Source of the DNA: an uncultured Pelagibacteraceae bacterium
GTDB lineage: Bacteria > Pseudomonadota > Alphaproteobacteria > Pelagibacterales > Pelagibacteraceae
Length of the DNA: 64,000 bases
Direction of reading: 5' to 3'
Assembly (NCBI GenBank): GCA_902607945.1
Contig: CACLMD010000002.1
Location: forward strand, 28,421 to 92,420
Shown: positions 37,483 through 60,028 of the stretch, piece after piece
How positions within the stretch are numbered: the stretch's first letter is position 1
Layout: each line of letters begins with the position of its first letter
The notes under the pieces: generated by a model
Database searches by the model: none
Told to the model about the DNA's origin: nothing
What the model saw: the letters and a program-made list of their open reading frames with translations, nothing else
Program-made: the position numbers and the translations under genes

Positions 37483-38010
37483 TTAGTATTTATACAAAAG
37501 ATTAATTTTATTAAGAATAGATTTACTTAAAGTATTTACTGGTTTTTTAAAGTTATTGTAAACTTTTATATGTGGCTTAACAGGAAATTCTGGTTTTATA
37601 TCAATTCCCACAAGATTTTTTTTATACTTAAAATATAACCTTTTTTTTTTATTTTTAATAATATCTTTTGTTTTAGACTCTATATATATTTCACAATAAT
37701 TTGTTATAGTTTTCCTATTATATGAATGTATTTTTCTAAATAAAGAAACAGTAGCAATTATTACATTAATGTTTTGGCTCGATATAAAATTTACTAATTT
37801 TGAGTAAGATAAGCCTATTAATAATCTTTTTTTAACATCATAATCTTTTAAATTTAAAATTTTTCTTATATCGTCACCACTGATTATAATCGTTTTGCCA
37901 TAAATATTTTCAATTTGTCTTTTTAATTTTTTTGCAATAGTAGTTTTGCCTGATCCAGGCAATCCAGTTACCCAGAACACAATACCTTTTTTTTTAATTA
38001 GATTATTCAT
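37483..38010 (-). CDS. Adenylylsulfate kinase (CysC)-like P-loop kinase
   Basis: VFWVTGLPGSGKTTIAKKL, SGDDIRKIL, IIATVSLFRKIHSYNR, DIKPEFPVKPHIKVYN pattern of APS-kinase family; substrate not assignable. Confidence 0.78.
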   Translation of the reverse strand: MNNLIKKKGIVFWVTGLPGSGKTTIAKKLKRQIENIYGKTIIISGDDIRKILNLKDYDVKKRLLIGLSYSKLVNFISSQNINVIIATVSLFRKIHSYNRKTITNYCEIYIESKTKDIIKNKKKRLYFKYKKNLVGIDIKPEFPVKPHIKVYNNFKKPVNTLSKSILNKINLLYKY

Positions 38011-38113: not shown

Positions 38114-38758
38114 ATGGATTTAAAAGTTAGAGATAGAACAGATGAAGAATTATTAATTAGAAAAAAAGAATTTTTAAAGATTTGTGAAATTCTAGATCTC
38201 CTTAATATTAATTTCTTTTTAAATTCTGGTGTTCTTTTAGGAGCAATAAGAGATAATTCTTTTATAAGATGGGACTGGGATGTTGAAATAAGTGTCTTTA
38301 AAAATGACTTCCTCCCAAAAATTGATTTGATTTCTGACACCCTTAAAAAATCTGGATTTAAAATTATTAAAATTATTAGGAATGAGAATAATTTAAAAAT
38401 AGATTTTATGGGTACTTATCCTGAAGATGTGACGTCTTACACTATTTATGGATGGCAATACTCCAAAATAAGAGATGTGTTTTGGAGAAAAGAATTATCA
38501 ATACCTTCAAAATTTTTAAAAAAGCTTTTAAAATTCAATTTTCTAGGTCGAGAATTTAATTGTCCAAACAATCTCGAAGAATATTTAACATTTGTTTATG
38601 GTAATTGGAAAAAACCTCTGAGAACTTCTAACAAGAAAGTGTATTTATCAAAAAACTATAAAAAAGAAACCTTTTTTTATACAGTTTTAATAGAAAAATT
38701 TTTATTAAAAATTTATAATATTTTTAAAATAATAAAAAATTTCATCAATTTTAAATGA
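38114..38758 (+). CDS. LicD/fukutin-like nucleotidyl/phospho-transferase
   Basis: LNINFFLNSGVLLGAIRDNSFIRWDWDVEISVF matches LicD-type SGxLLGAxRxxxFIxWDxDxEI core. Confidence 0.75.
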   Translation: MDLKVRDRTDEELLIRKKEFLKICEILDLLNINFFLNSGVLLGAIRDNSFIRWDWDVEISVFKNDFLPKIDLISDTLKKSGFKIIKIIRNENNLKIDFMGTYPEDVTSYTIYGWQYSKIRDVFWRKELSIPSKFLKKLLKFNFLGREFNCPNNLEEYLTFVYGNWKKPLRTSNKKVYLSKNYKKETFFYTVLIEKFLLKIYNIFKIIKNFINFK

Positions 38759-43548: not shown

Positions 43549-45266
43549 TGGCAAAATTTAATAAAAAGAAACTTCCAAGTAGACACACATCTTTAGGAGC
43601 AGATAGAGCCCCTCATAGATCTTTTTACTATGCAATGGGTGAAACAGAAAAAGATGTAGCAAAACCTTTTGTGGGTGTTGTCTCAACTTGGAATGAAGCT
43701 GCCCCATGTAATATTGCTTTGATGAGACAAGCTCAATCAGTCAAAAAGGGAGTAAGAGCTCACGGAGGAACTCCCAGAGAATTTTGCACAATTACAGTTA
43801 CCGATGGAATTGCAATGGGTCATGAAGGAATGAAATCTTCTTTAATATCAAGAGAAGTAATTGCAGATTCAGCTGAGCTAACTGTAAGAGGACATTGTTA
43901 TGATGCGTTAGTAGGCATAGCTGGATGTGATAAATCCTTACCTGGCCTAATGATGTCTATGGTAAGATTAAATGTTCCAAGTGTTTTTATTTATGGAGGA
44001 TCAATTCTTCCTGGACGATATAAAGGAAAAGACGTAACTGTTGTTGATGTATTTGAAGCAGTCGGTAAACATTCATCTGGTCAAATGTCAGCAGCAGAAC
44101 TTAGAAAGTTAGAATTAGTTGCTTGTCCAAGTGCTGGAGCTTGTGGAGGTCAATTTACAGCTAACACTATGGCCTGTGTATCTGAGGCTATTGGTTTAGC
44201 ACTTCCTTATTCAGCTGGAACTCCAGCTCCATATGAAGAAAGAGATAAGTACGCAAAAGCAAGTGGAAAAATGGTTATGAACCTCTTAAAAAAAGGAATT
44301 AAGCCAAGAGATATTGTGACTAAGAAAGCTTTAGAAAACGCCGCAACAATAGTTGCTGCAACGGGCGGATCAACTAATGCAGGACTACATTTACCAGCTA
44401 TCGCTAATGAAGCAGGAATAAAATTTGATTTAATGGACGTTGCAAAAATTTTTAAAAGAACTCCATATCTTGCTGATCTAAAACCTGGTGGAAAATATGT
44501 TGCAAAAGATATGTGGTTAGCAGGGGGTGTTCCAATGTTACTTAAAACTTTATATGATGGTGGTTTTATTCATGGTGACTGTATGACAGTGACAGGAAAA
44601 ACTATGAAGGAAAATTTAAAGAATATTAGATTTAATCCTAAGCAAAAAGTTTTAAGAAAATTTGATAACCCATTATCTCCAGATGGCGGCGTTGTTGGTT
44701 TAAAAGGAAATTTAGCTCCAGATGGAGGTATAGTTAAAATTGCTGGACTTAAAAAATTACAATTTACTGGTAGAGCAAGATGTTTTGATAATGAAGAGGC
44801 TGCAATGGAAGCTGTTCAAAAAAGAAAATACAAAGATGGTGATGTAATCATTATTAGATATGAAGGACCAGTTGGAGGTCCTGGTATGAGAGAAATGTTA
44901 TCTACTACAGGTGCAATCTATGGTCAGGGAAAAGGAGAAAAAGTAGCTCTTATAACTGATGGAAGGTTCTCTGGTGCTACAAGAGGTTTCTGTGTAGGTC
45001 ATGTAGGCCCTGAGGCTGCTCTAGGAGGACCTATAGCTCTATTACGTAATGGAGATTTTATTGATATAGATGCAAAAAAAGGGACCATTAATGTAAGACT
45101 TTCTAAAAAAGAATTAGCTTCAAGAAAAAAAAAATGGAAGCCAAGAAAATCTGATTTTGGTTCTGGTACATTGTGGAAATATGCACAAACTGTTGGACCT
45201 GCTTTTTTAGGTGCACCAACTCATCCAGGTAAAAAAAAAGAAGTTAAGGACTATTCAGAAATTTAA
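43548..45266 (+). CDS. ilvD: Dihydroxy-acid dehydratase
   Basis: [47 protein letters not shown]. Confidence 0.96.
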
Positions 45267-46471
45267 TGAAAATTCGTCCAGTTATTTTATGTGGTGGCGC
45301 CGGAACTAGACTTTGGCCAAATTCTAAAAATCATCAAGCAAAGCAATTTATTGATTTTGGTGAATGGACTTTACTTGGTAAAACTTTAGAAAGAATTAAA
45401 GCTTCAATTTATGATGTCCCAATTATAAGCACTAATAATAAATACTTAAAACAAGTTAAACAACATCTTAAAAAAAATAAGATTAAAAAATATAAAATAG
45501 TTTTAGAACCCGCAAAAAGAAACACTGCACCGGCAATTTTAAGCACAGCTCTAATTAAAGTTATTCCTGATGATCAACCGTTAATGTTTTTTACTGCAGA
45601 TCATTTAATTGAAAAGATGAGTATTTTTAATAAAGCAATTAATAAAAACAAATCAAATCTGACAGATCAAAACATCTTTATTTTTGGCATTAAACCAACA
45701 TCACCATCAAGTGAATATGGATATTTTGTAACCAAAAGAATTAAAGGAAATATCAACAAAGTTACTAAATTTATTGAAAAACCAAAACTAGCAATAGCCA
45801 AACAAGTAATTAAACAAAAAGGTTATTGGAATTCTGGAATGTTTTTCCTCAGAAAGGACTCAATAATAAACAACTTTAAGAAGAAACAACCAACTATGTA
45901 TAGAAACTGTGTTAATGCTGTTAAAAAGGCTAAGCTTAAAGCTGATACTTATTATTTAAATAAGACCTCATATATTAAAGCTACAGCAAAATCATTTGAT
46001 TATGCAATTCTAGAAAAAACTAAACAAATCAATGCTATTAAATTAGATATACCTTGGTCAGATCTTGGAAGTTGGAAAGAAATCTTAAAGATGTACGATA
46101 AAAATAAATATAAATACGTTAAGAAAAAGAATGTTTATTACCGTCCGTGGGGCAGATACACAAATTTGTTTAAAGGGGAAGAATTTTTAATTAAAGAATT
46201 ATTCGTTAAACCTAAAGGAATTCTAAGTTTACAAAAACATAATCATAGATCAGAGCATTGGCTTATTACAAAAGGTAATCCAAAAATCACATTAGATAAT
46301 AATAATTTTTTTAAAAGACCTAATGAACATCTATTTATTCCAATAAAGTCTATACATAGAATCCAAAATTTAGGAAAAAAACCAGTCAAAATTTTAGAGG
46401 CTCAAATAGGGTCATTATTAAAAGAGTCTGACATTATAAGATTTAAGGATGCTTATGGAAGGGTTAAGTAA
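45266..46471 (+). CDS. manC: Mannose-1-phosphate guanylyltransferase (with C-terminal cupin-like region)
   Basis: PVILCGGAGTRLWPNS...AKQF, FIEKPKLAIAKQ..GYWNSGMF, RPWGRYTNL, C-terminal SLQKHNHRSEHWLIT. Confidence 0.9.
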   Translation: MKIRPVILCGGAGTRLWPNSKNHQAKQFIDFGEWTLLGKTLERIKASIYDVPIISTNNKYLKQVKQHLKKNKIKKYKIVLEPAKRNTAPAILSTALIKVIPDDQPLMFFTADHLIEKMSIFNKAINKNKSNLTDQNIFIFGIKPTSPSSEYGYFVTKRIKGNINKVTKFIEKPKLAIAKQVIKQKGYWNSGMFFLRKDSIINNFKKKQPTMYRNCVNAVKKAKLKADTYYLNKTSYIKATAKSFDYAILEKTKQINAIKLDIPWSDLGSWKEILKMYDKNKYKYVKKKNVYYRPWGRYTNLFKGEEFLIKELFVKPKGILSLQKHNHRSEHWLITKGNPKITLDNNNFFKRPNEHLFIPIKSIHRIQNLGKKPVKILEAQIGSLLKESDIIRFKDAYGRVK

Positions 46472-46473
46472 TT

Positions 46474-47220
46474 ATGACAATTGATTATCTTAATTTTAAA
46501 AAAAAATTTGATGATGAAGGCTATTTTGTTTTGAAGAATTTTGTAAAAGAAGATTTTATTTCTTATTTGGTTGATGAAATTAATAAATCTACCAATACTG
46601 TTAAATACTTTGATAATTCAAAGAATCTACGAAGAATTGAAAAACTATATGATAAAGGTCAATATTTAATAAGCATGAATGAAAAAATTTTAATCCTTTT
46701 AAAAAATGTGTTTGCCAAGGATTTTTTGATATTTAAAGATAAATTTAATTCCAAACCACCTGGAGGGGAGGGTTTTTTTGCTCATTATGATGGAGTGTTT
46801 GAATTTATAAATTCTAATAATGAGAGAAAAAAAGGATGGTATGAATATGGAGATTTTTTTGTAAGTGCATTAGTGGCTATTGATAGGTGCAATAAAGAAA
46901 ATGGAGCTCTTGAAATAGCTAAATCCCACAAAGGAAATTTTGATCAGCTTTATGAAAATACAAAAAAAGACGGCACTCCTGCACTTTCTAATGAGCTTGA
47001 GTCCAAAACGTTATTTAATTTAATAGACTTAGAAGTTGGTGATATGATTATTTTTTCAAATAGATGTCCACATAGATCAAAAAAGAATGATTCTCAAAAA
47101 ATTAGAAGAATAATATATTATACTTATACTCTTAGTGAAAATGGTTCAAAATATGATCAATATTTTAAAGATAAAGAAAATAGCAAGAATAAATCAAAAG
47201 CATTATCTGAAAAGCCTTAA
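46474..47220 (+). CDS. Phytanoyl-CoA dioxygenase (PhyH)-family Fe(II)/2-oxoglutarate oxygenase
   Basis: YFVLKNFV start, HxD motif in FFAHYDGV, distal CPHRSKKNDSQKIRRIIYYTY. Confidence 0.8.
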   Translation: MTIDYLNFKKKFDDEGYFVLKNFVKEDFISYLVDEINKSTNTVKYFDNSKNLRRIEKLYDKGQYLISMNEKILILLKNVFAKDFLIFKDKFNSKPPGGEGFFAHYDGVFEFINSNNERKKGWYEYGDFFVSALVAIDRCNKENGALEIAKSHKGNFDQLYENTKKDGTPALSNELESKTLFNLIDLEVGDMIIFSNRCPHRSKKNDSQKIRRIIYYTYTLSENGSKYDQYFKDKENSKNKSKALSEKP

Positions 47221-47283
47221 AAATATATTAATGGAACTGTTTAGTTTTTCATATATAACATAATTTAATTTTCTATCGTTATA

Positions 47284-48588
47284 ATGAAATTTAAAAAAAA
47301 AGTTTATGTTGGTTTATCTGTTGATATAATTCATGAAGGACACATTAATATTCTTAAAACAGCAAGTAAATATGGTGAAATAATTGTTGGTCTCTTGACA
47401 GATGAAGCAATAGCTTCTTATAAAAATATTCCTTATTTAAATTATAATAGAAGAAAGATTATTATTCAGAACATTAAGTATGTTAAAAAGGTAATACCTC
47501 AGAATACCTTAAGTTATGTCCCAAACCTTAAATTGATAAAACCTGATTTTGTTGTTCATGGAGATGATTGGAAAAAAGGAGTTCAAAAACAAACACGTCA
47601 TGATGTAATTAAGACTCTTAAAGGATGGTCTGGAAAATTAATTGAACCAAAATATACAAAAAATATTTCATCAACGTTAATAAAAAATAGAATTTTAGAA
47701 ATTGGTATTTCACCTCAAAATAGAGTAAGTAGGCTTAAACGCTTAATCTCGTCAAAAAATATTGTACGTATTTTGGAGTCACATAATTCTTTAACAGGTT
47801 TAATAATTGAAAATTTGAAAATAATTAAAAAAAATAAAAATATAGAGTTTGACGGTATGTGGTCTTCTAGTCTTACAGATTCTGCAACAAAAGGTTTGCC
47901 AGACAACTCTTCCTTATCTTTTTCTGCGAGAATTTCCTCATTAAACGATATAATGGATGTTACAACAAAACCTGTAGTTTTTGATGCTGATAATGGAGGC
48001 CAAATAGAACATCTTCCTTATTTGATAAGATCATTAGAAAGATCTGGTGTTTCGGCAATTATTATGGAAGATAAAATTGGTCTAAAAAAAAACTCATTAT
48101 TTAAAAATCAAATTGGTACAAAACAGGATAAACCAAACCTTTTTGCAAATAAGATTAAAAGAATTTGTGGTACAAGACAATCTCAAGACTTCATGGTAAT
48201 TGCTAGAATTGAAAGTTTTATTTTAGGAAAAGGTCTAAATGACGCTTTAAAACGAGCTGAAACTTATTCAAAGGCAGGTGCAGACGCAATTTTAATTCAT
48301 AGCAAAGAAAAAAATACAAAAGAAATATTTTCTTTTGCTAAAAAATTTAAAAAAAGTAGATACTTTATCCCTTTAGTTTCTGTGCCCTCAACTTATTCAA
48401 AAGTTTATGAAAAGGATTTAATTAAAAATGGATTTAAACTAGTTATTTATGCAAACCAACTACTACGAGCTGCATATCCAGCTATGCAAAATACAGCTAG
48501 AACAATTTTAAGAAATAGTCGTGCATTTGAAGCTGATAAAAAAATAATACCTATTAAAGAAATAATTAGCTTAATAAAAAATGATTAA
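47284..48588 (+). CDS. pepM: Phosphoenolpyruvate mutase with N-terminal cytidylyltransferase-like domain
   Basis: N-term VGLSVDIIHEGHINIL (HxGH nucleotidyltransferase); C-term PepM signature EDKIGLKKNSLF (EDKx5NS) and WSSSLTDS. Confidence 0.92.
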   Translation: MKFKKKVYVGLSVDIIHEGHINILKTASKYGEIIVGLLTDEAIASYKNIPYLNYNRRKIIIQNIKYVKKVIPQNTLSYVPNLKLIKPDFVVHGDDWKKGVQKQTRHDVIKTLKGWSGKLIEPKYTKNISSTLIKNRILEIGISPQNRVSRLKRLISSKNIVRILESHNSLTGLIIENLKIIKKNKNIEFDGMWSSSLTDSATKGLPDNSSLSFSARISSLNDIMDVTTKPVVFDADNGGQIEHLPYLIRSLERSGVSAIIMEDKIGLKKNSLFKNQIGTKQDKPNLFANKIKRICGTRQSQDFMVIARIESFILGKGLNDALKRAETYSKAGADAILIHSKEKNTKEIFSFAKKFKKSRYFIPLVSVPSTYSKVYEKDLIKNGFKLVIYANQLLRAAYPAMQNTARTILRNSRAFEADKKIIPIKEIISLIKND

Positions 48589-49675
48589 AGTAGAGGGTTT
48601 AATTAATCTATTAAAAAGAAATAAAAGTGATTTTTTTTCAGGGGTACCTGATAGTGTATTAAAAAATTTTTCTTCATTATTAAAAGATAGCAAAAAACAT
48701 ATAATTGCAACTAACGAAGGTTCGGCAGTTTCTATTGGTATAGGCCAATATCTGTCTACAAAAAAAATTCCTGTTATTTATATGCAAAATTCAGGATTAT
48801 CAAATGCTTTAAATCCACTAATTTCTATAGCTCATAAAAAAGTATACTCAATACCTCTGATTTTAGTTATAGGGTGGAGAGGTTCTCCAAATACTAAAGA
48901 TGAACCTCAACACAATGTAAAAGGTAAAATCACAAGAAGCATACTTAAACTTTTAGATATTAAATATACAATTCTGAGGTCTGATTCAGATTTGAAAAAA
49001 TTTGACAAGCAAATAAAAATTGCGAAAAAAAATAAAAGTATTGTTGCATGTTTAATAGAACAGGGAGTCCTAAAGAAAAAAACAAAACTTAAAAAAAAAA
49101 AAGATTTTTATAGCTTAGATAAAGAATTATTTTTAAAAACTTTTTTACAAAATTTACCGAAAAAAACAAAAATTATTTCTAGTACAGGTTATAATTCGAG
49201 AGAATTAATGCACCTAAGAAAAAAATACCAAATTAAGAATGGTAAAGATTTTTATATGGTTGGGGGAATGGGTCATACTTCATCAGTAGCCTTAGGATAC
49301 TCCTTAACAAGTAAAAATAAAACGGTATGCATTGATGGAGATGGATCTTTTTTGATGCATTTAGGATCAATTAAATCAGCAGGAACATTTGCTAATAAAA
49401 ACTATAAATATATAGTTTTAAATAATAACACCCATGACTCTGTTGGTGGTCAAAATACTTATGCAAATAATGTAAATTTTGAAAAGTTATCAAAAAGTTT
49501 TGGTTTTAAGAAATTTTTTTCTATTACAAATAGAAAAAACCTAAAAAAAAATATTCAAAATTTTTTAGATTCAAATAAATTAAGTTTTTTAGAAGTAAAG
49601 ATTTCTAATTCTAAAATTAAAAAATTACCAAGACCTAAAAATTTGATAAAAATAAGAAATCAATTTATGAATTAA
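48581..49675 (+). CDS. ppd: Phosphonopyruvate decarboxylase (ThDP-dependent)
   Basis: FFSGVPDSVLKNF, GWRGSPNTKDEPQH, ThDP motif GDGSFLMHLGSIKSAG..NNNTHDSVGGQNT; overlaps pepM. Confidence 0.92.
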   Translation: MIKVEGLINLLKRNKSDFFSGVPDSVLKNFSSLLKDSKKHIIATNEGSAVSIGIGQYLSTKKIPVIYMQNSGLSNALNPLISIAHKKVYSIPLILVIGWRGSPNTKDEPQHNVKGKITRSILKLLDIKYTILRSDSDLKKFDKQIKIAKKNKSIVACLIEQGVLKKKTKLKKKKDFYSLDKELFLKTFLQNLPKKTKIISSTGYNSRELMHLRKKYQIKNGKDFYMVGGMGHTSSVALGYSLTSKNKTVCIDGDGSFLMHLGSIKSAGTFANKNYKYIVLNNNTHDSVGGQNTYANNVNFEKLSKSFGFKKFFSITNRKNLKKNIQNFLDSNKLSFLEVKISNSKIKKLPRPKNLIKIRNQFMN

Positions 49676-50778
49676 TGATTAGTTCTATTAAAGATATTAA
49701 AAAATTCTTAAGTGACAAAAGCTTAATAAAGATCTTTATCTTATGTGGAAAAAAATCTTTTGTAACTTCTGGTGCTGAAAATTTATTAAAAGATATAACT
49801 TTAAATAAAAAGATAAAACTTTTCTATAAAAGTTCAGAACTTCCTATACTTGATGAATTAATCAAAATTATCAAAGATGTAAGAAATTTTGAACCAGATT
49901 TAATTTTAGCTATCGGTGGAGGTACTGTAATGGATTATGCTAAAGTTGCCAATGTAGTTGATGTTAGACCTGATCTTGATCAATTAATTGAAAATTATTC
50001 ATATCCTTTTGATAAAAAATATACCCGATTAGCTGTAATTCCAACTACAGCTGGATCTGGAGCTGAAGTAACCTCTAATGCTGTTATTTACGTAAAAGGT
50101 ATAAAACATTCGTTTGAAAGTGATTTATTAATACCCGATAATTTTTTTTTAATTCCAGATTTTTTAACTTCCGCTCCCCATAAAATTAGAGCATCTGCAG
50201 GTTTTGACGCTATAGCACAAGCGCTGGAGTCTTTGGTATCAAAAAAATCAAATGATCAAAGTGTGCATTACGCATCAAAATCATTAAAGGCTTCTATTAA
50301 TACCTATATACCTTTCTTAAATGAACCTAATTTAAGTAATGCATCAGAAATGAGTATAGCAGCAAATTTAGCTGGAAAAGCTATTAGTATATCAAAAACA
50401 ACAGCTCCACATGCAACCTCATATCCATTTACTTCTTTATTTGATATTAGTCATGGTCATGCCGTGGGATTATTTTTTGAAAAATTTTTTAGGTTTAATT
50501 ATAATAATTTAAATAAATCAGAGACCACTTTTGATTTAAAAAAAAGATTTGATCTAATATTTGATTTATTTAATGTTCAAAATATAGATGACTTTTGTAC
50601 AAAAATATCTTTAATTAAAAAACAAGCAAATTTAGAGGATGATATAAGAAAATTAAATATTGATATAAATAAAAGTTCAGAAAACATAATAAAGGGTATA
50701 AATTTGTTAAGACTTGGAAATAACCCTGTAAAAATTGATGGAAAAGATATTTATAATATAATTTCTAATGTTGATTGA
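49675..50778 (+). CDS. Iron-containing alcohol dehydrogenase, probable phosphonoacetaldehyde reductase
   Basis: LAIGGGTVMDYAKVAN, PTTAGSGAEVTSNAV, AFDAxAQALES, DISHGHAVGLF Fe-ADH motifs; overlaps ppd. Confidence 0.82.
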   Translation: MISSIKDIKKFLSDKSLIKIFILCGKKSFVTSGAENLLKDITLNKKIKLFYKSSELPILDELIKIIKDVRNFEPDLILAIGGGTVMDYAKVANVVDVRPDLDQLIENYSYPFDKKYTRLAVIPTTAGSGAEVTSNAVIYVKGIKHSFESDLLIPDNFFLIPDFLTSAPHKIRASAGFDAIAQALESLVSKKSNDQSVHYASKSLKASINTYIPFLNEPNLSNASEMSIAANLAGKAISISKTTAPHATSYPFTSLFDISHGHAVGLFFEKFFRFNYNNLNKSETTFDLKKRFDLIFDLFNVQNIDDFCTKISLIKKQANLEDDIRKLNIDINKSSENIIKGINLLRLGNNPVKIDGKDIYNIISNVD

Positions 50779-50791
50779 GTAAATACTTATA

Positions 50792-51895
50792 ATGATTAAA
50801 AAATTTGGTTCATACATTCGAGAAAAAAGAATAAGTCTTGGACTGGGCCAAAGGCAATTTGCAAAAAAAATTGGTATTGCAGCATCATATTTAAATGATA
50901 TTGAAAAAAATAAAAGATCAGCTCCAAAAAATGAAATAATAAAAAAGATCTCTTTAATTTTAGAAGTTGACTTAGATTTATTAAATGATTTAGTTGGAGC
51001 CTCTAAAAAAACCTTACCACCTGATATAATTGATTATTTAGAAAAAAATCCTAAATTTATATCGTTAATTAGATCTGCCAAAAACAATAAACTAAAAGAT
51101 TTTGAATTTGAAAAAATTGAAGAAACTATAAATAAATCAAAAACTAAATGTTTAATAGTTGCTGCAGGACTTGGTAGCAGACTTAAGGGACATACAGAAA
51201 ATAACCCTAAATGTATGTTAGATTTTGGAGGTAAAACCTTATTACAAAGGCAATTATCTTCCTATAAAGATAATGGAATAAAAGATATTTCACTTATAAG
51301 AGGATATAAAAAAAATAAAATAAATTATAAAGGAATTAAATATTTTGATAATAATGATTACAAAAACAACAATATACTAAATTCAATTTTTTATGGTGAA
51401 GAAGTTATTAATGGTAATATTATAATCTCTTATTCTGATATTTTATTTGAACCTTTTGTAGTCAAAAGAGCAATGGAATCTGATCATGATATTTCTGTTG
51501 TAGTAGATGTTGAATGGCGTGATTATTATATAGATAGAAAAGATCATCCTTTATCTGAAGCAGAAAATGTTATCTTTAATTCCAATAACGAGGTCGTTAA
51601 AATTGGAAAAATAGCATCTGAAAAAGAAGAAGTTCATGGTGAATTTATTGGAATGATAAAATTAAATCATCGAGGATGTGAAATTTTAAAACAAAACTTT
51701 CATCGTGTTAAAAAAATATACTGGAACAAACCCTTTCAAAGAGCAAAAATTTTTCAAAAAGCATATTTAACTGATATGATTCAAGAACTTGTTGATATAG
51801 GCATCAAAGTTCATTGTGTAATCATTGAAAGAGGATGGAAAGAAATTGATACTGTAGAAGACTATAAAAAATCTTTAATTGACTTTAATCGATAA
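50792..51895 (+). CDS. N-terminal XRE HTH fused to MobA-like NTP transferase (candidate phosphonate/phosphocholine-type cytidylyltransferase)
   Basis: IREKRISLGLGQRQFAKKIGIAASYLNDIEKNKRSAPK HTH followed by CLIVAAGLGSRLKGHTENNPKCMLDFGGKTLLQRQL NTP transferase core in one ORF. Confidence 0.85.
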   Translation: MIKKFGSYIREKRISLGLGQRQFAKKIGIAASYLNDIEKNKRSAPKNEIIKKISLILEVDLDLLNDLVGASKKTLPPDIIDYLEKNPKFISLIRSAKNNKLKDFEFEKIEETINKSKTKCLIVAAGLGSRLKGHTENNPKCMLDFGGKTLLQRQLSSYKDNGIKDISLIRGYKKNKINYKGIKYFDNNDYKNNNILNSIFYGEEVINGNIIISYSDILFEPFVVKRAMESDHDISVVVDVEWRDYYIDRKDHPLSEAENVIFNSNNEVVKIGKIASEKEEVHGEFIGMIKLNHRGCEILKQNFHRVKKIYWNKPFQRAKIFQKAYLTDMIQELVDIGIKVHCVIIERGWKEIDTVEDYKKSLIDFNR

Positions 51896-51928: not shown

Positions 51929-51971
51929 TGTTCGCTAAATAATGTATATATAATTAACTTGTCTGCGAACA
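51929..51971. promoter_or_regulatory. Inverted repeat TGTTCGC-N29-GCGAACA upstream of phnD
   Basis: Perfect 7-bp arms at 51929-51935 and 51965-51971. Confidence 0.5.
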
Positions 51972-51998
51972 CAGTTAATGGTAACAAAAGGACAAATT

Positions 51999-52853
51999 AT
52001 GATAAAAAAATACATATTTATAATGTTTCTAGTTTTATTTACTGGAAACTTAAATGCTGAATCAAAAACCTATAAAATGGTATTTGTTCCTGCTAGTGAA
52101 AAGGGTGATGAAAGCGATTACAAAAGTTTAATTTCAATTACTGAAAAAATTACAGGTTTTAATATCGATACAATTAAAGTAACAGACTATAATGCAGCAG
52201 TTGAAGCAATGAGAGCTGGTAGGGCTCATATTGCTTGGTATGGAGGAAAAACATATGTTAAGGCCGCTGAGATTGCCAATGCAGAAGCCTTCGCAGCTGG
52301 TGTAAGACCAGGAGAAAAAGATGCAGGTTACTACACTTATTTTGTCGTCAAAAAAGATAGTAAGTTAAAAGAATTTAATGATGTTAAAGGTAAAATTTTA
52401 TCTTTAAATACAATCGGTTCAACGAGTGGTGATTTAATACCTCAAGTAGAATTAAGTAAAATTAATCTTTCAATAAAAAATAAAGAACACTTTGATAAAG
52501 TTTATTATGCTGGAAGTCATGATGCATGTTTATTAGCAGTATTAAATAATCAATCTGATGTCTGCGGTATGAGTTCTAGAAATTTTGAAGCAAGATTAGC
52601 TGATGGAACTTTTAAAAAAGAAGATGTAAGAATTATACATAAGTCGGATAGAGTTCCACCACCACCATTAGCTTATTCAAAAATGATACCAAAAGAAGAT
52701 AGGGATAAAATTAAAAATGCTGTCCTAGAAGCTCATCAGCATGGAGAAATAGGTGGATATGGTGGAAAGATGTCTCACTATATGGAAGTTAAAGATTCTG
52801 ACTACAATGTTTTGAGAGAAGTAATTGAATTATTAAATAAGAATAAAAGTTAA
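51999..52853 (+). CDS. phnD: Phosphonate/phosphite/phosphate ABC transporter substrate-binding protein (ORF track start 51978)
   Basis: Signal peptide, VPASEKGDESDYKSLISI..., AMRAGRAHIAWYGGKTYVKA, SHDACLLAVLN. Confidence 0.88.
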   Translation: MIKKYIFIMFLVLFTGNLNAESKTYKMVFVPASEKGDESDYKSLISITEKITGFNIDTIKVTDYNAAVEAMRAGRAHIAWYGGKTYVKAAEIANAEAFAAGVRPGEKDAGYYTYFVVKKDSKLKEFNDVKGKILSLNTIGSTSGDLIPQVELSKINLSIKNKEHFDKVYYAGSHDACLLAVLNNQSDVCGMSSRNFEARLADGTFKKEDVRIIHKSDRVPPPPLAYSKMIPKEDRDKIKNAVLEAHQHGEIGGYGGKMSHYMEVKDSDYNVLREVIELLNKNKS

Positions 52854-52867
52854 AATTATATAGAATT

Positions 52868-53590
52868 ATGCTTGAAATAAACGATCTTAAAAAAACCTTT
52901 GATAACGGCAGTCCTGCATTAAAAGGTGTAAATTTAAAAATTAATAAGGGAGAATTTGTAAGTATTTTAGGGCCAAGTGGTTCAGGTAAAACAACTTTAC
53001 TTAGAACAATTAATGGACTTGAAACCTCAAGTGGAGGGGAAATTTATTTTAATGATAAAAAAATAGATAATAACAGTATTCCAGAAGTCCAAAAAAAAAC
53101 TGGAATGATTTTTCAAGAATTTAATCTAGTAAACAATCTATCTGCAATAAACAATGTCTTAACTGGTCTATTAAATTCAAGTAATAAATTCTTATCTTTA
53201 TTTTATTTATTTAAAAAAGATCAAAAAATTGAAGCTTTAAAATCTTTAAAAACCGTAGGTTTACTTGAAAAATCTTATAACAGATCTGATGAATTATCTG
53301 GAGGTCAAAGACAAAGAGTTGGAATAGCAAGAGCTATAATTAAAAGACCATTATTATTGTTAGCTGATGAGCCCGTTGCTAGCTTAGATCCTAAAGCTGC
53401 AAATCTAATTTTATCCCTATTAAAGAAAATTAATAAAGAGTTTGGCACAACTATTCTTTGTAACCTTCATCAAGTTGATTTAGCTAAAAAATATTCAGAT
53501 AGATTAGTCGGTCTTTTGGATGGTAAAATCATATTTGATGAAAAATCTGAAAATATTAACAAAACTAATTTAGAGAAAATATACATATAA
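52868..53590 (+). CDS. phnC: Phosphonate ABC transporter ATP-binding protein
   Basis: GPSGSGKTTLLRTING, LSGGQRQRVGIARAI, ADEPVASLDP. Confidence 0.92.
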   Translation: MLEINDLKKTFDNGSPALKGVNLKINKGEFVSILGPSGSGKTTLLRTINGLETSSGGEIYFNDKKIDNNSIPEVQKKTGMIFQEFNLVNNLSAINNVLTGLLNSSNKFLSLFYLFKKDQKIEALKSLKTVGLLEKSYNRSDELSGGQRQRVGIARAIIKRPLLLLADEPVASLDPKAANLILSLLKKINKEFGTTILCNLHQVDLAKKYSDRLVGLLDGKIIFDEKSENINKTNLEKIYI

Positions 53591-53591
53591 T

Positions 53592-54419
53592 ATGGATCGA
53601 AACGTTATAAAGCTCAAAGTTGACAATAAAGATAAAGATCTTGCGACTTATCTAAAACCACAATGGTCTTGGAAAACCCTTACCACTATAGGGATATTTT
53701 CTTTTATTTTGGTATTTGTTGTAAATGATTTGGAGATTGATTTTATTAAATTAGTAACAGACTCTTCAAAATATTTTGGAGATATCTTATCAAGGATGCT
53801 TCCACCTGATTTTAGTAATTTAAATCAATTAATTTATGCAATGTTTGAGACTATTGAAATTGCTTTTCTTGGTACTTTTATTGCAATAGTTTTATCAATT
53901 CCTTTAGGTTTATTTTCAGCAAGAAATTTAGCTCCTAATTATTTTGTTTATCTAATATGTAAAACTATAGTTATATTCTTTAGAGCAATTCCTGAATTTA
54001 TTATAGCAATGATTTTAGTTATTGCGATTGGATTTGGAGCAATGCCAGGAGTACTTGCACTAGGTTTGCATACTATGGGATTTTTAGCAAAATTTTATGC
54101 AGAAGATATCGAGCATATTAACAAAGGACCAATTGATGCTCTTAAATCTTCAGGTGCAACTAAAAGTCAAATTATTTCATTCGGTGTTATACCTCAGATC
54201 TTACCATCTTTTGTTGCAAACAATTTATATATCTTAGATAGAAATGTTAGAATGGCTACAATGCTAGGTATAGTTGGAGCAGGTGGAATTGGATATGAAT
54301 TACAATCATCATTTAGAATGTTTGAATATGAAAGAGTTTCTGCAATTATAATTCTAATATTTGTGACAATTTTTATTATAGATCATCTATCAGCATTTAT
54401 AAGATCTAAAATTAAATAA
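53592..54419 (+). CDS. phnE: Phosphonate ABC transporter permease
   Basis: ETIEIAFLGTFIAIVLSIPLGLFSARNLAPN, FRAIPEFIIAMILV, LGIVGAGGIGYEL. Confidence 0.92.
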   Translation: MDRNVIKLKVDNKDKDLATYLKPQWSWKTLTTIGIFSFILVFVVNDLEIDFIKLVTDSSKYFGDILSRMLPPDFSNLNQLIYAMFETIEIAFLGTFIAIVLSIPLGLFSARNLAPNYFVYLICKTIVIFFRAIPEFIIAMILVIAIGFGAMPGVLALGLHTMGFLAKFYAEDIEHINKGPIDALKSSGATKSQIISFGVIPQILPSFVANNLYILDRNVRMATMLGIVGAGGIGYELQSSFRMFEYERVSAIIILIFVTIFIIDHLSAFIRSKIK

Positions 54420-54462: not shown

Positions 54463-54807
54463 ATGCTTACATTTAAAATTTCTGGATATTTGTATTTATT
54501 TTTTGCAGTGATATTAGGTATTGCTTCAAATGGTTTATTAAAGACCACAAACGGTTTTACAAATTTAATGCCAACGTTATTTTGTATAATTTCAATAGTT
54601 CTTTGCATTTTTTGTTTGTCTAAAGTTATGATGATGATCCCAGTAGGTTTTGCTTATGCCACGTATGGAGGTCTAACCATTACAGCTGTAACAATCTTTG
54701 GTATTTTGAAATATAATCAATTACCTAATATTTATGGAACTATAGGTATAATTTTAATAATTATTGGTGTTATTCTTGTAAACTATTTAGGAAAAGTAAG
54801 TTCTTAA
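54463..54807 (+). CDS. Small multidrug resistance (SMR) family transporter
   Basis: ~114 aa, four TMs, ASNGLLKTTNGFTNLMP, IPVGFAYATYGGL. Confidence 0.88.
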   Translation: MLTFKISGYLYLFFAVILGIASNGLLKTTNGFTNLMPTLFCIISIVLCIFCLSKVMMMIPVGFAYATYGGLTITAVTIFGILKYNQLPNIYGTIGIILIIIGVILVNYLGKVSS

Positions 54808-58902: not shown

Positions 58903-58922
58903 TTTATTCCTTGACTAGAATA

Positions 58923-58937
58923 TGTTATATTATTACA
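58923..58937. promoter_or_regulatory. Second (imperfect) Zur box TGTTATATTATTACA
   Basis: One mismatch to TGTTATANTATAACA. Confidence 0.7.
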
Positions 58938-58940
58938 TAG

Positions 58941-58955
58941 TGTTATATTATAACA
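58941..58955. promoter_or_regulatory. Zur box TGTTATATTATAACA (perfect 7-1-7 palindrome)
   Basis: Exact match to the proteobacterial Zur core TGTTATANTATAACA in the znuC/znuA divergent region. Confidence 0.88.
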
Positions 58956-58972
58956 ATTTAAATATACAACAT

Positions 58973-60028
58973 ATGAAAAATATTAAAAAATTACCATTAA
59001 TCTTATCAATACTATCATTCTTAATTACTTTTGTACCAGCAAATGCTGAAATTAAAGTAGTTGCAACAATAAAACCAATTCATTCACTTGCAAGTTATCT
59101 AATGGATGGCATTGGTAAACCAGATTTAATCGTTGATGGTTACGCTTCACCTCATGGATTTGCACTCAAGCCATCCCATGCAAAAATGATTCAAAACGCT
59201 GATATTATATTTTGGGTAGGTGAGGACATAGAAAATTTCTTAGAAAAACCATTAAAAACTATTGCAAAAAAAGCTGAAAAAATTGAATTAATGGAAATTA
59301 AAGGGTTAACCAAACTTAAATTTAGAGAAAGAAATATTTTTGAAGGTCATGACGATCATGGTCATAAAGAGGATGATCATGATGATCATGCAAAAAAAGA
59401 AGATGATCACGATGACCACGGACATGACGATGAGCATAAAGAAGATGATCACGATGACCACGGACATGACGATGAGCATAAAGAAGATGATCACGATGAT
59501 CATGGTCATGAAGGGCACGCTCATGGTGAGTATGATCCACATATTTGGTTAGATCCAATGAATGCAAAAGTAATTTTAAGTGAAATGGCAGAACATTTGA
59601 TTGAGAATGATCCAAAAAATGAGACTAAATATAAAGAAAACTTAAAAAAAGCACATAAAGATTTAGATAAACTAACGAAGAAAGTTAAATCTGAATTAAA
59701 CAAAGATTTTAAATCAATAGTTTTTCATGATGCGTATCAATATTTTGAAGAAAGATTTGGTATTAATATTTTAGGTGCATTTACAGTAAATACAGACGTA
59801 ATGCCTGGTGCTGAACAATTAGCTGAAATCAGAGAAGTAATTGAGCATGATAAAGTAAGCTGTATATTTTCAGAGCCTCAATTTAATCCTGATATTATAA
59901 AAGCTGTAGCGAAAGATACTAATGTTGCAACAGGGGTCATAGATCCATTAGGAGCAACTCTTAACCCTGGTAAAGATTTATATTTTGATTTAATCAGTAA
60001 CATGTCAAAATCTTTCAAAGGCTGTTAA
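58973..60028 (+). CDS. znuA: Zinc ABC transporter substrate-binding protein with His/Asp-rich loop (ORF track start 58922)
   Basis: Signal peptide MKNIKKLPLILSILSFLITFVPANA; IKPIHSLASYLMDGIG; HDHGH-rich insertion; FHDAYQYFEERFGI. Confidence 0.93.
   Translation: MKNIKKLPLILSILSFLITFVPANAEIKVVATIKPIHSLASYLMDGIGKPDLIVDGYASPHGFALKPSHAKMIQNADIIFWVGEDIENFLEKPLKTIAKKAEKIELMEIKGLTKLKFRERNIFEGHDDHGHKEDDHDDHAKKEDDHDDHGHDDEHKEDDHDDHGHDDEHKEDDHDDHGHEGHAHGEYDPHIWLDPMNAKVILSEMAEHLIENDPKNETKYKENLKKAHKDLDKLTKKVKSELNKDFKSIVFHDAYQYFEERFGINILGAFTVNTDVMPGAEQLAEIREVIEHDKVSCIFSEPQFNPDIIKAVAKDTNVATGVIDPLGATLNPGKDLYFDLISNMSKSFKGC
59402..59513 (+). repeat. In-frame 42-bp tandem repeat (about 2.7 copies) encoding DDHDDHGHDDEHKE
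   Basis: Copies at 59402-59443 and 59444-59485 are identical; partial third copy from 59486. Confidence 0.9.

Follow-up and report, generated by a model that had tools for sequence, protein, structure and literature searches.

Our analyses identify, in a 64-kb stretch of Pelagibacterales DNA (hereafter the window), a protein that joins an XRE-type HTH domain to a nucleotidyltransferase domain of the LicC/PntC fold, belongs with the phnDCE importer encoded downstream of it and is accompanied by a conserved putative operator. From the fold, the retained motifs, the linkage to the importer and the conservation of the operator, we infer a bifunctional enzyme-repressor that would bind DNA and control both phnDCE and its own gene, and that would activate an imported phosphonate with CTP for transfer to the cell surface; we give this reading a probability of about 0.5. 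The query genome, assigned to Pelagibacterales, comprises 832 kb of assembled sequence at an estimated completeness of about 68%.

A single protein with two domains

The preliminary description of this DNA had proposed one open reading frame running from an XRE-type HTH into an NTP-transferase core, and this is what we find.

50792–51895, + strand: HTH-nucleotidyltransferase fusion gene; 367 aa, intact ORF, no internal stop
50792–50995, + strand: XRE/Cro-C1 HTH domain, residues 1–68; HTH_3 E 8e-12; model pLDDT mostly 81–94 over residues 1–60
50996–51133, + strand: helical linker, residues 69–114; least conserved part of the protein, with a P-x-DI/NP-x(3)-LLR pattern retained
51134–51895, + strand: LicC/PntC-fold nucleotidyltransferase domain, residues 115–367 and stop; catalytic residues kept

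Both Pfam domains score above their gathering cut-offs, HTH_3 (PF01381) at residues 9–64 (45.4 bits against 23, E 8e-12) and NTP_transf_3 at residues 120–230 (32.9 bits against 27, E 9e-8), and the NTP-transferase motif quoted earlier, VAAGLGSRLKGHTENNPKCML, is found at residues 123–143. No NCBIfam equivalog reached its cut-off with the 367-aa protein. In sequence searches of the PDB, the N-terminal part is matched best by SinR/434-type repressors and the C-terminal part by LicC (1jyk, 7e-13). A full-length AF2 model built with 14 sequences is confident in the HTH only; HTH models are matched by 11 of the 14 aligned members of the family.

An assembly artefact or frameshift between two ORFs, a worry voiced about such a fusion, is excluded by intact orthologues in many independent genomes of two phyla. 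Other Pelagibacteraceae carry orthologues 70–96% identical to the query, and the architecture recurs in two Omnitrophota genomes: in one, the orthologue (L012) is 48% identical and aligns over residues 3–367, and in the other (G448, contig L145), HTH_19, HTH_3 and NTP_transf_3 are matched in a single 367-aa protein. Comparison of SAR11 orthologues gives pN values well under pS both for the HTH and for the NTP part, the latter being the most conserved region of the protein; synonymous sites are near saturation for distant pairs, and the pattern in the HTH indicates that purifying selection maintains it. A class-wide search of 386 genomes gave no fusion outside SAR11 among matches at E up to 1e-40 (non-SAR11 matches align from residue 76 or later), and none of the 25 matching records in a plasmid collection covers 80% of the query.

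The fusion belongs with the downstream importer

In the window, the fusion gene lies between a phosphonate biosynthesis block and the genes of an importer.

38114–38758, + strand: LicD-family protein (PF04991, E 5e-11)
45266–46471, + strand: mannose-1-P guanylyltransferase/PMI-like
46474–50778, + strand: phosphonate biosynthesis block (PhyH-like oxygenase, cytidylyltransferase-PepM fusion, Ppd, Fe-ADH)
51999–52853, + strand: phnD, phosphonate/phosphite-type binding protein (PF12974, E 2.6e-48)
52868–53590, + strand: phnC, ABC ATPase
53592–54419, + strand: phnE, ABC permease
54463–54807, + strand: SMR-family membrane protein; in many relatives an EamA/TIGR03340 gene takes this place or adjoins it

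The phnD start given by the ORF caller, 51978, falls within the operator described below, and the start at 51999 comes after AAAGGA. The product is both PhnD-like and PtxB-like, its closest solved relatives including PtxB. The biosynthesis block ends 14 bp upstream of the fusion gene, a spacing from which the fusion gene in the window is probably read from the promoter of the block. The PepM gene of the block (47284–48588, + strand) carries the PepM motif EDKIGLKKNS and an N-terminal cytidylyltransferase-like domain of the Fom1 type (PF01467 and PF13714), an architecture also seen in the SAR11 PepM loci searched; with this domain and the HTH fusion, the window encodes two different CTP-type enzymes. 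The LicD-family protein is a candidate for the transferase to which the CMP-activated product would be handed.

Two further genes of the window deserve mention. A small APS-kinase-like gene (37483–38010, − strand) reappears close to the fusion or to LicD in other loci (L009 4703–5224, −; L079 7658–8173, +; L141 9192–9764, +) and may be a glycan-pathway kinase rather than a sulfur gene. A ZnuA-like zinc-binding protein (58922–60028, + strand) contains a long His/Asp-rich stretch of DDHGHDDEHKED repeats, which yield a spurious ORF on the opposite strand.

The earlier placement of the fusion "in the phosphonate operon" holds to the letter for the window and fails for most relatives. Among 298 Pelagibacterales genomes, many of them incomplete assemblies, the fusion occurs in seven (G000, G150, G172, G202, G254, G255 and G257) and PhnD in six, all six being fusion carriers (p 8e-12; this and the following p values ignore shared ancestry). 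The LicD subfamily is also found in seven, four of them fusion genomes (p 4e-6), and thus in only four of the seven fusion carriers. PepM exceeds its cut-off in 26 genomes, and the overlap with the fusion is a single one, the query genome itself (p 0.48); no link between the fusion and PepM was found in SAR11. Of the remaining loci, only L002, L005, L012 and L014 come from genomes in which PepM was found above the cut-off or close to it.

Gene order gives the same picture. Wherever the contig continues, SAR11 loci have the fusion followed by phnD-phnC-phnE and usually by SMR and/or EamA genes, the exception being G202. The left neighbour is a GMP/PMI gene in L004, L008, L015, L017 and L020, a Thy1 gene in L005, the 3′ end of a 23S rRNA (recognised from sequence) in G254, Fe-ADH in the window and L002, and a Ppd remnant in L003. 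Differing left neighbours with a constant phnDCE downstream are the mark of a transferable module: the fusion belongs to the importer, and the window and its closest relatives (L002, with a remnant in L003) are alone in having the biosynthesis block directly upstream of it.

These counts bear on the function first suggested for the protein, that of a PntC-like cytidylyltransferase of the PepM pathway acting on AEP, HEP or phosphocholine, with the HTH repressing the biosynthetic operon. The gene does come directly after PepM-Ppd-Fe-ADH in the window and L002, and in the Omnitrophota loci L012 and L014 it adjoins PepM-NTP and Fe-ADH genes; against this, only one of the 26 SAR11 PepM genomes carries the fusion.

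The query genome holds both PepM and the phnDCE importer. The latter is not evidence of consumption, since PhnJ is lacking: none was found in 18 fusion genomes, incomplete assemblies included, and phosphonatase and PhnY models gave sub-cut-off family matches only. Within the limits of incomplete assemblies, C-P lyase catabolism is thus not the evident purpose of the importer, and on these searches for PhnJ, phosphonatase and PhnY we rejected uptake as a phosphorus source.

Two variants of the locus stand apart. The gene in G202 (L078 9234–10352, − strand) is the sole fusion gene with neither phnDCE nor the operator. Its neighbours are genes for glycosyltransferases and sulfotransferases, and a LicD gene lies some 2 kb off; its regulator half is possibly idle or active elsewhere. 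L010 (6274–7827) and L006 (2876–4408) encode a PhnE permease with an N-terminal PhnD-like binding domain (517 aa in L010), a binding protein-permease fusion resembling GlnPQ and extra to the separate PhnD gene.

A conserved putative operator before phnD

An inverted repeat between the fusion gene and phnD had been pointed out from the sequence, and it is indeed present.

51953–51979, + strand: putative operator ATTAACTT-GTCTGCGAACA-CAGTTAAT, overlapping TATAAT at 51949–51954
51930–51939, − strand: possible second half-site TTTAGCGAAC, one mismatch to the core GTTNGCGAAC; shared by L002 and L003; not significant by itself

The repeat is the single such site, with no mismatches, where 0.04 would be expected at up to three mismatches, and it recurs at every fusion-phnD junction compared (15 SAR11 loci). 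The sites fall into group A, ATTAACTT-GTnnGCGAACA-AAGTTAAT, and group B, TGTTATTA-nGTTAGCGAACA-aTAATAACA, and the core GTnnGCGAACA is invariant except at the two n positions. The arms differ between the groups and change together, so that for the most part they still pair around one and the same central C (they are imperfect in L004, L008, L011 and L013), as is expected of a DNA site bound by a dimer; since transcription is expected to start between the arms, an RNA hairpin is the less likely alternative. In several group B loci, TTGACA or TTGACG stands 17 bp before TTATTA or TTATTG, and this second hexamer overlaps the left arm. The window has TATAAT at 51949–51954 and no consensus −35, and a promoter scan of the region upstream of phnD found nothing above chance.

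We scanned the loci with an operator matrix and 15 genomes for the exact core, the bare core being too short for significance alone. Across the 64-kb window, the site before phnD scores 32.5 bits, the window being among the sequences from which the matrix was built, and the next best scores 7.1. There is no second strong operator in the window and hence none at the PepM block, so control of that block through this operator was rejected, which argues further against the HTH serving the biosynthetic pathway. What survives of the proposal that the protein regulates its own pathway is probable control of the adjacent genes, its own included.

Sites outside the matrix point in the same direction. 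In G254, where the fusion gene starts its own unit after the rRNA, a second operator (17.4 bits) lies just before its start. In the Omnitrophota genome G448, the best site of the 6-kb contig, TGTTAACTTGCTAGTGAACAGG, scores 11.3 bits with the next at 1.3, and it lies directly after TTGACA-18-TATAAT (a 12/12 promoter) and directly before the HTH-NTP gene; none of 2000 shuffled 146-bp stretches reached its score, although 40 shuffles of the whole contig gave maxima of up to 16.1. No comparable operator was found with the HTH-less relatives L141–L143 or in G202. L012 has no clear operator, and its recognition helix reads SSYLSDIESLHR as against ASYLNDIEKNKR. As is typical of XRE regulators, then, a conserved palindromic site stands at the promoters predicted to be regulated, those of phnD in 15 loci and, in G254 and G448, that of the fusion gene; the inverted repeat is a conserved putative operator that follows the HTH across phyla. 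On this pattern, the protein is probably an operator-bound autoregulator.

The enzyme domain and its substrate site

The AF2 model of the NTP domain (residues 113–367) has a mean pLDDT of 90.4 and a pTM of 0.90, and a Foldseek search of the PDB with it places PntC first (6pd2; E 2.3e-16, TMq 0.77) and LicC (1jyk) second. The features shared by NTP_transf_3 and LicC/PntC enzymes are all present: the fold, the GXG(S/T)RX4-8PK motif with its catalytic Arg and Lys (R130 and K140), and the metal Asp D216, together with E351-I-D353. Loss of metal- or NTP-binding residues, which would have spoken against an enzyme, is thus not seen. By position, R130 and K140 correspond to R15 and K25 of Tde-PntC, whose Ala mutants retain <10% activity (PMC6697681). 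The protein likely works as a cytidylyltransferase of the LicC/PntC fold, and judging from the residues kept, an active CTP-using enzyme is a good prospect.

One could instead see the NTP domain as a mere ligand-binding module and the protein purely as a transcription factor for phnDCE. Such a sensor would suit an HTH and operator that travel together across phyla, and other cytidylyltransferases are at hand for the chemistry (the PepM-fused domain in the window, PepM-NTP in L012). It would hardly call, however, for keeping R130, K140, D216, E351 and D353 in what is the most conserved part of the protein, and the close HTH-less relatives retain the same catalytic motifs; we consider it improbable.

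The likeness to PntC and LicC that was noted from the sequence is borne out for the fold and finds no support for the substrates AEP and phosphocholine. In Tde-PntC, E104 is the residue touching the AEP amine (PMC6697681). The fusion has Y214 at this position and at that of LicC D105, near the choline site; in the alignment, the Tyr is invariant among the 14 members. In a wider alignment, solo NTPs of AEP clusters (Mycetohabitans, Roseomonas) show MDAD or MDGD in the Y214 region, and the xYxD and GEF/GQY signatures mark the HTH fusion, the NTPs fused to PepM and almost every solo NTP of SAR11. The Tyr subgroup occurs in AEP clusters with a transaminase as well as in HEP-type clusters with Fe-ADH, so gene context alone does not fix the substrate. 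We know of no Tyr214-type NTP with an established activity.

Among known systems, PntC (T. denticola PntC-AEPT, PDB 6PD1/6PD2; Rice et al. 2019, PMC6697681) shares with the fusion the fold, the GXG(S/T)RX4-8PK motif, the metal Asp and a linkage to phosphonate genes and transporters. It is fused to a transaminase rather than to an HTH, has E104 in place of Tyr214 and is 16–18% identical over the fold; the fusion, unlike PntC, is not tied to PepM in SAR11 (1/26). Given the Tyr and the mixed cluster types of its subgroup, filing the fusion as PntC is not justified. LicC (CTP:phosphocholine cytidylyltransferase, 1JYK/1JYL) is the best PDB match by sequence and second best by fold, and a LicD-family gene lies in the fusion's own region; LicC lacks the HTH and has D105 where the fusion has Tyr, and we noticed no choline kinase gene among the fusion's neighbours. 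The PepM-fused NTP_transf_3 domains of Omnitrophota, Mycetohabitans and Roseomonas share the xYxD, GEF-G/GQY-G and W-x-EIDT-like signatures at about 30% identity, with PepM rather than an HTH as the partner, and L012 and L014 hold the PepM-fused and the fusion-type NTP side by side. For a role in the PepM pathway, the fold nearest to PntC counts in favour and the Tyr in place of the AEP-binding Glu counts against; with the rarity of the fusion in PepM genomes and the location of the operator, we regard that role as unlikely.

Relatives in Omnitrophota and the history of the fusion

The Omnitrophota genes, too, keep company with transporter genes. An MFS transporter gene directly follows the fusion in G448 and the HTH-less relatives in G506 and G527 (53–56% identical), and in G335 it follows the HTH-less relative after a small ORF; when tested, the MFS proteins of G448 and G335 matched the GlpT/PgtP/UhpC organophosphate group. 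Downstream of the relative in G351 comes an EamA protein that, like the SAR11 EamA gene, matches TIGR03340 (phosphonate utilization associated), and PepM-NTP and Ppd lie further on. In L012 and L014, the gene has PepM-NTP, Fe-ADH and a membrane protein of the sulfatase family beside it; a Glyphos_transf gene stands a short way upstream in L012.

These neighbours bear on the cargo. PhnD could carry phosphite, and the same regulator might serve an importer of phosphite or a phosphate ester, the enzyme then activating a phospho-alcohol akin to phosphocholine or glycerol phosphate. The window PhnD resembles PtxB and PhnD alike, Prochlorococcus phnDCE is cited as a phosphite-only carrier (PMC10734472), and Omnitrophota relatives have GlpT/PgtP-like transporters beside them and, in two cases, CDP-alcohol phosphotransferase genes nearby. 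The TIGR03340 neighbours and the PepM beside Omnitrophota genes, however, point to phosphonates; the fusion lacks the amine-site acid of LicC, and phosphite would need further steps before serving a glycan-loading enzyme as a salvage substrate. Another cargo thus seems to us an outside chance, and an imported phosphonate slightly better than an even bet.

In a tree of NTP domains, all HTH fusions and their close relatives without an HTH form one group (SH-aLRT 80), next to which stand the PepM-adjacent solo NTPs (SH-aLRT 90 for the larger group). The history suggested is that of a phosphonate-associated NTP, with gain or loss of the HTH in some branches of the group and transfer between the ancestors of these bacteria. 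L014 (1729–2709), which keeps the linker, lacks the HTH and lies beside PepM-NTP, is by its sequence a natural loss of the DNA-binding half. A separate HTH_3 protein of about 240 aa lies between NTP and PepM-NTP in L012 (9115–9843, + strand) and L146 (6921–7628); it may have a cupin-like C-terminal part and is perhaps another regulator of the phosphonate cluster. Distant NTP relatives on a Vibrio plasmid (L149) and a Roseovarius plasmid (L150), annotated as phosphocholine cytidylyltransferases, belong to a conserved gene trio whose other members encode a PEP-utilizing/PEP-pyruvate-binding enzyme and a protein of the gamma-glutamyl-GABA hydrolase family, followed in Vibrio by a CDP-glycerol glycerophosphotransferase gene.

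Proposed mechanism

In the enzyme-repressor reading that we prefer, the XRE HTH would bind the palindromic operator overlapping the phnD promoter and repress phnDCE, and it would repress the fusion gene where that gene has its own promoter with an operator at the start. The C-terminal domain would activate the imported compound with CTP, the most likely substrate being a small phosphonate without an amine, for example 2-hydroxyethylphosphonate, and in the query genome it could also activate home-made phosphonate from the upstream PepM-Ppd-ADH block. From the CMP conjugate, a LicD-type transferase in SAR11 or a Glyphos_transf-type one in Omnitrophota would decorate surface glycans. The fusion without phnDCE and operator in G202 and the lack of a clear operator in L012 count against the mechanism.

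Occupancy of the enzyme domain would set DNA binding, and in the simplest version accumulated CMP-product would increase repression, as in BirA and NadR. BirA (HTH and biotin ligase) activates a scavenged metabolite and represses the genes for its uptake or synthesis, the logic proposed for the fusion; NadR, with the same logic, joins an XRE HTH to an NMN adenylyltransferase and a kinase. Like them, the fusion combines an HTH with an enzyme; it lies next to importer genes (6/6 PhnD genomes), and its enzyme would handle the cargo of the importer. The enzyme domains of BirA and NadR are unrelated to that of the fusion, and ligand coupling, argued by analogy, is an evenly balanced proposition. 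Product feedback and substrate induction both fit the data; we lean to feedback, at about even odds, because the regulator is the enzyme making the activated product.

Significance

Our literature search, confined to open-licence papers, surfaced no description of an HTH-cytidylyltransferase fusion of this kind. Enzyme-repressors as such are already known from BirA and NadR, and the combination of an HTH with the LicC/PntC fold is a new variant of them. More tentatively, and with rather less confidence than in the mechanism itself, we suggest an undescribed class in which an XRE HTH and a CTP:phosphonate cytidylyltransferase would gauge their own CMP-phosphonate, control the uptake of environmental phosphonate and feed surface salvage without synthesis of their own, a class that would have moved between phyla with its operator. 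As close relatives with and without the HTH both exist, the family offers a clean case, beyond the biotin and NAD systems, of an activating enzyme turning into a repressor.

Of the high-molecular-weight dissolved organic phosphorus that seawater contains, 20–25% is phosphonate; genomes of SAR11 have been tallied as phosphonate producers or consumers, two traits that seldom coincide (Acker et al. 2022, PMC8931226). If our reading is true, there would be a third strategy beside biosynthesis and catabolism, the reuse of others' phosphonates on the SAR11 surface, and it would suit fusion genomes that are mostly without PepM and, where searched, without PhnJ. With the regulator and the operator sequence now available, this can be tested in a laboratory strain. 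An importer that comes with the fusion and its own control site suggests that phosphonate import is metered by the amount activated, probably for the surface coat.
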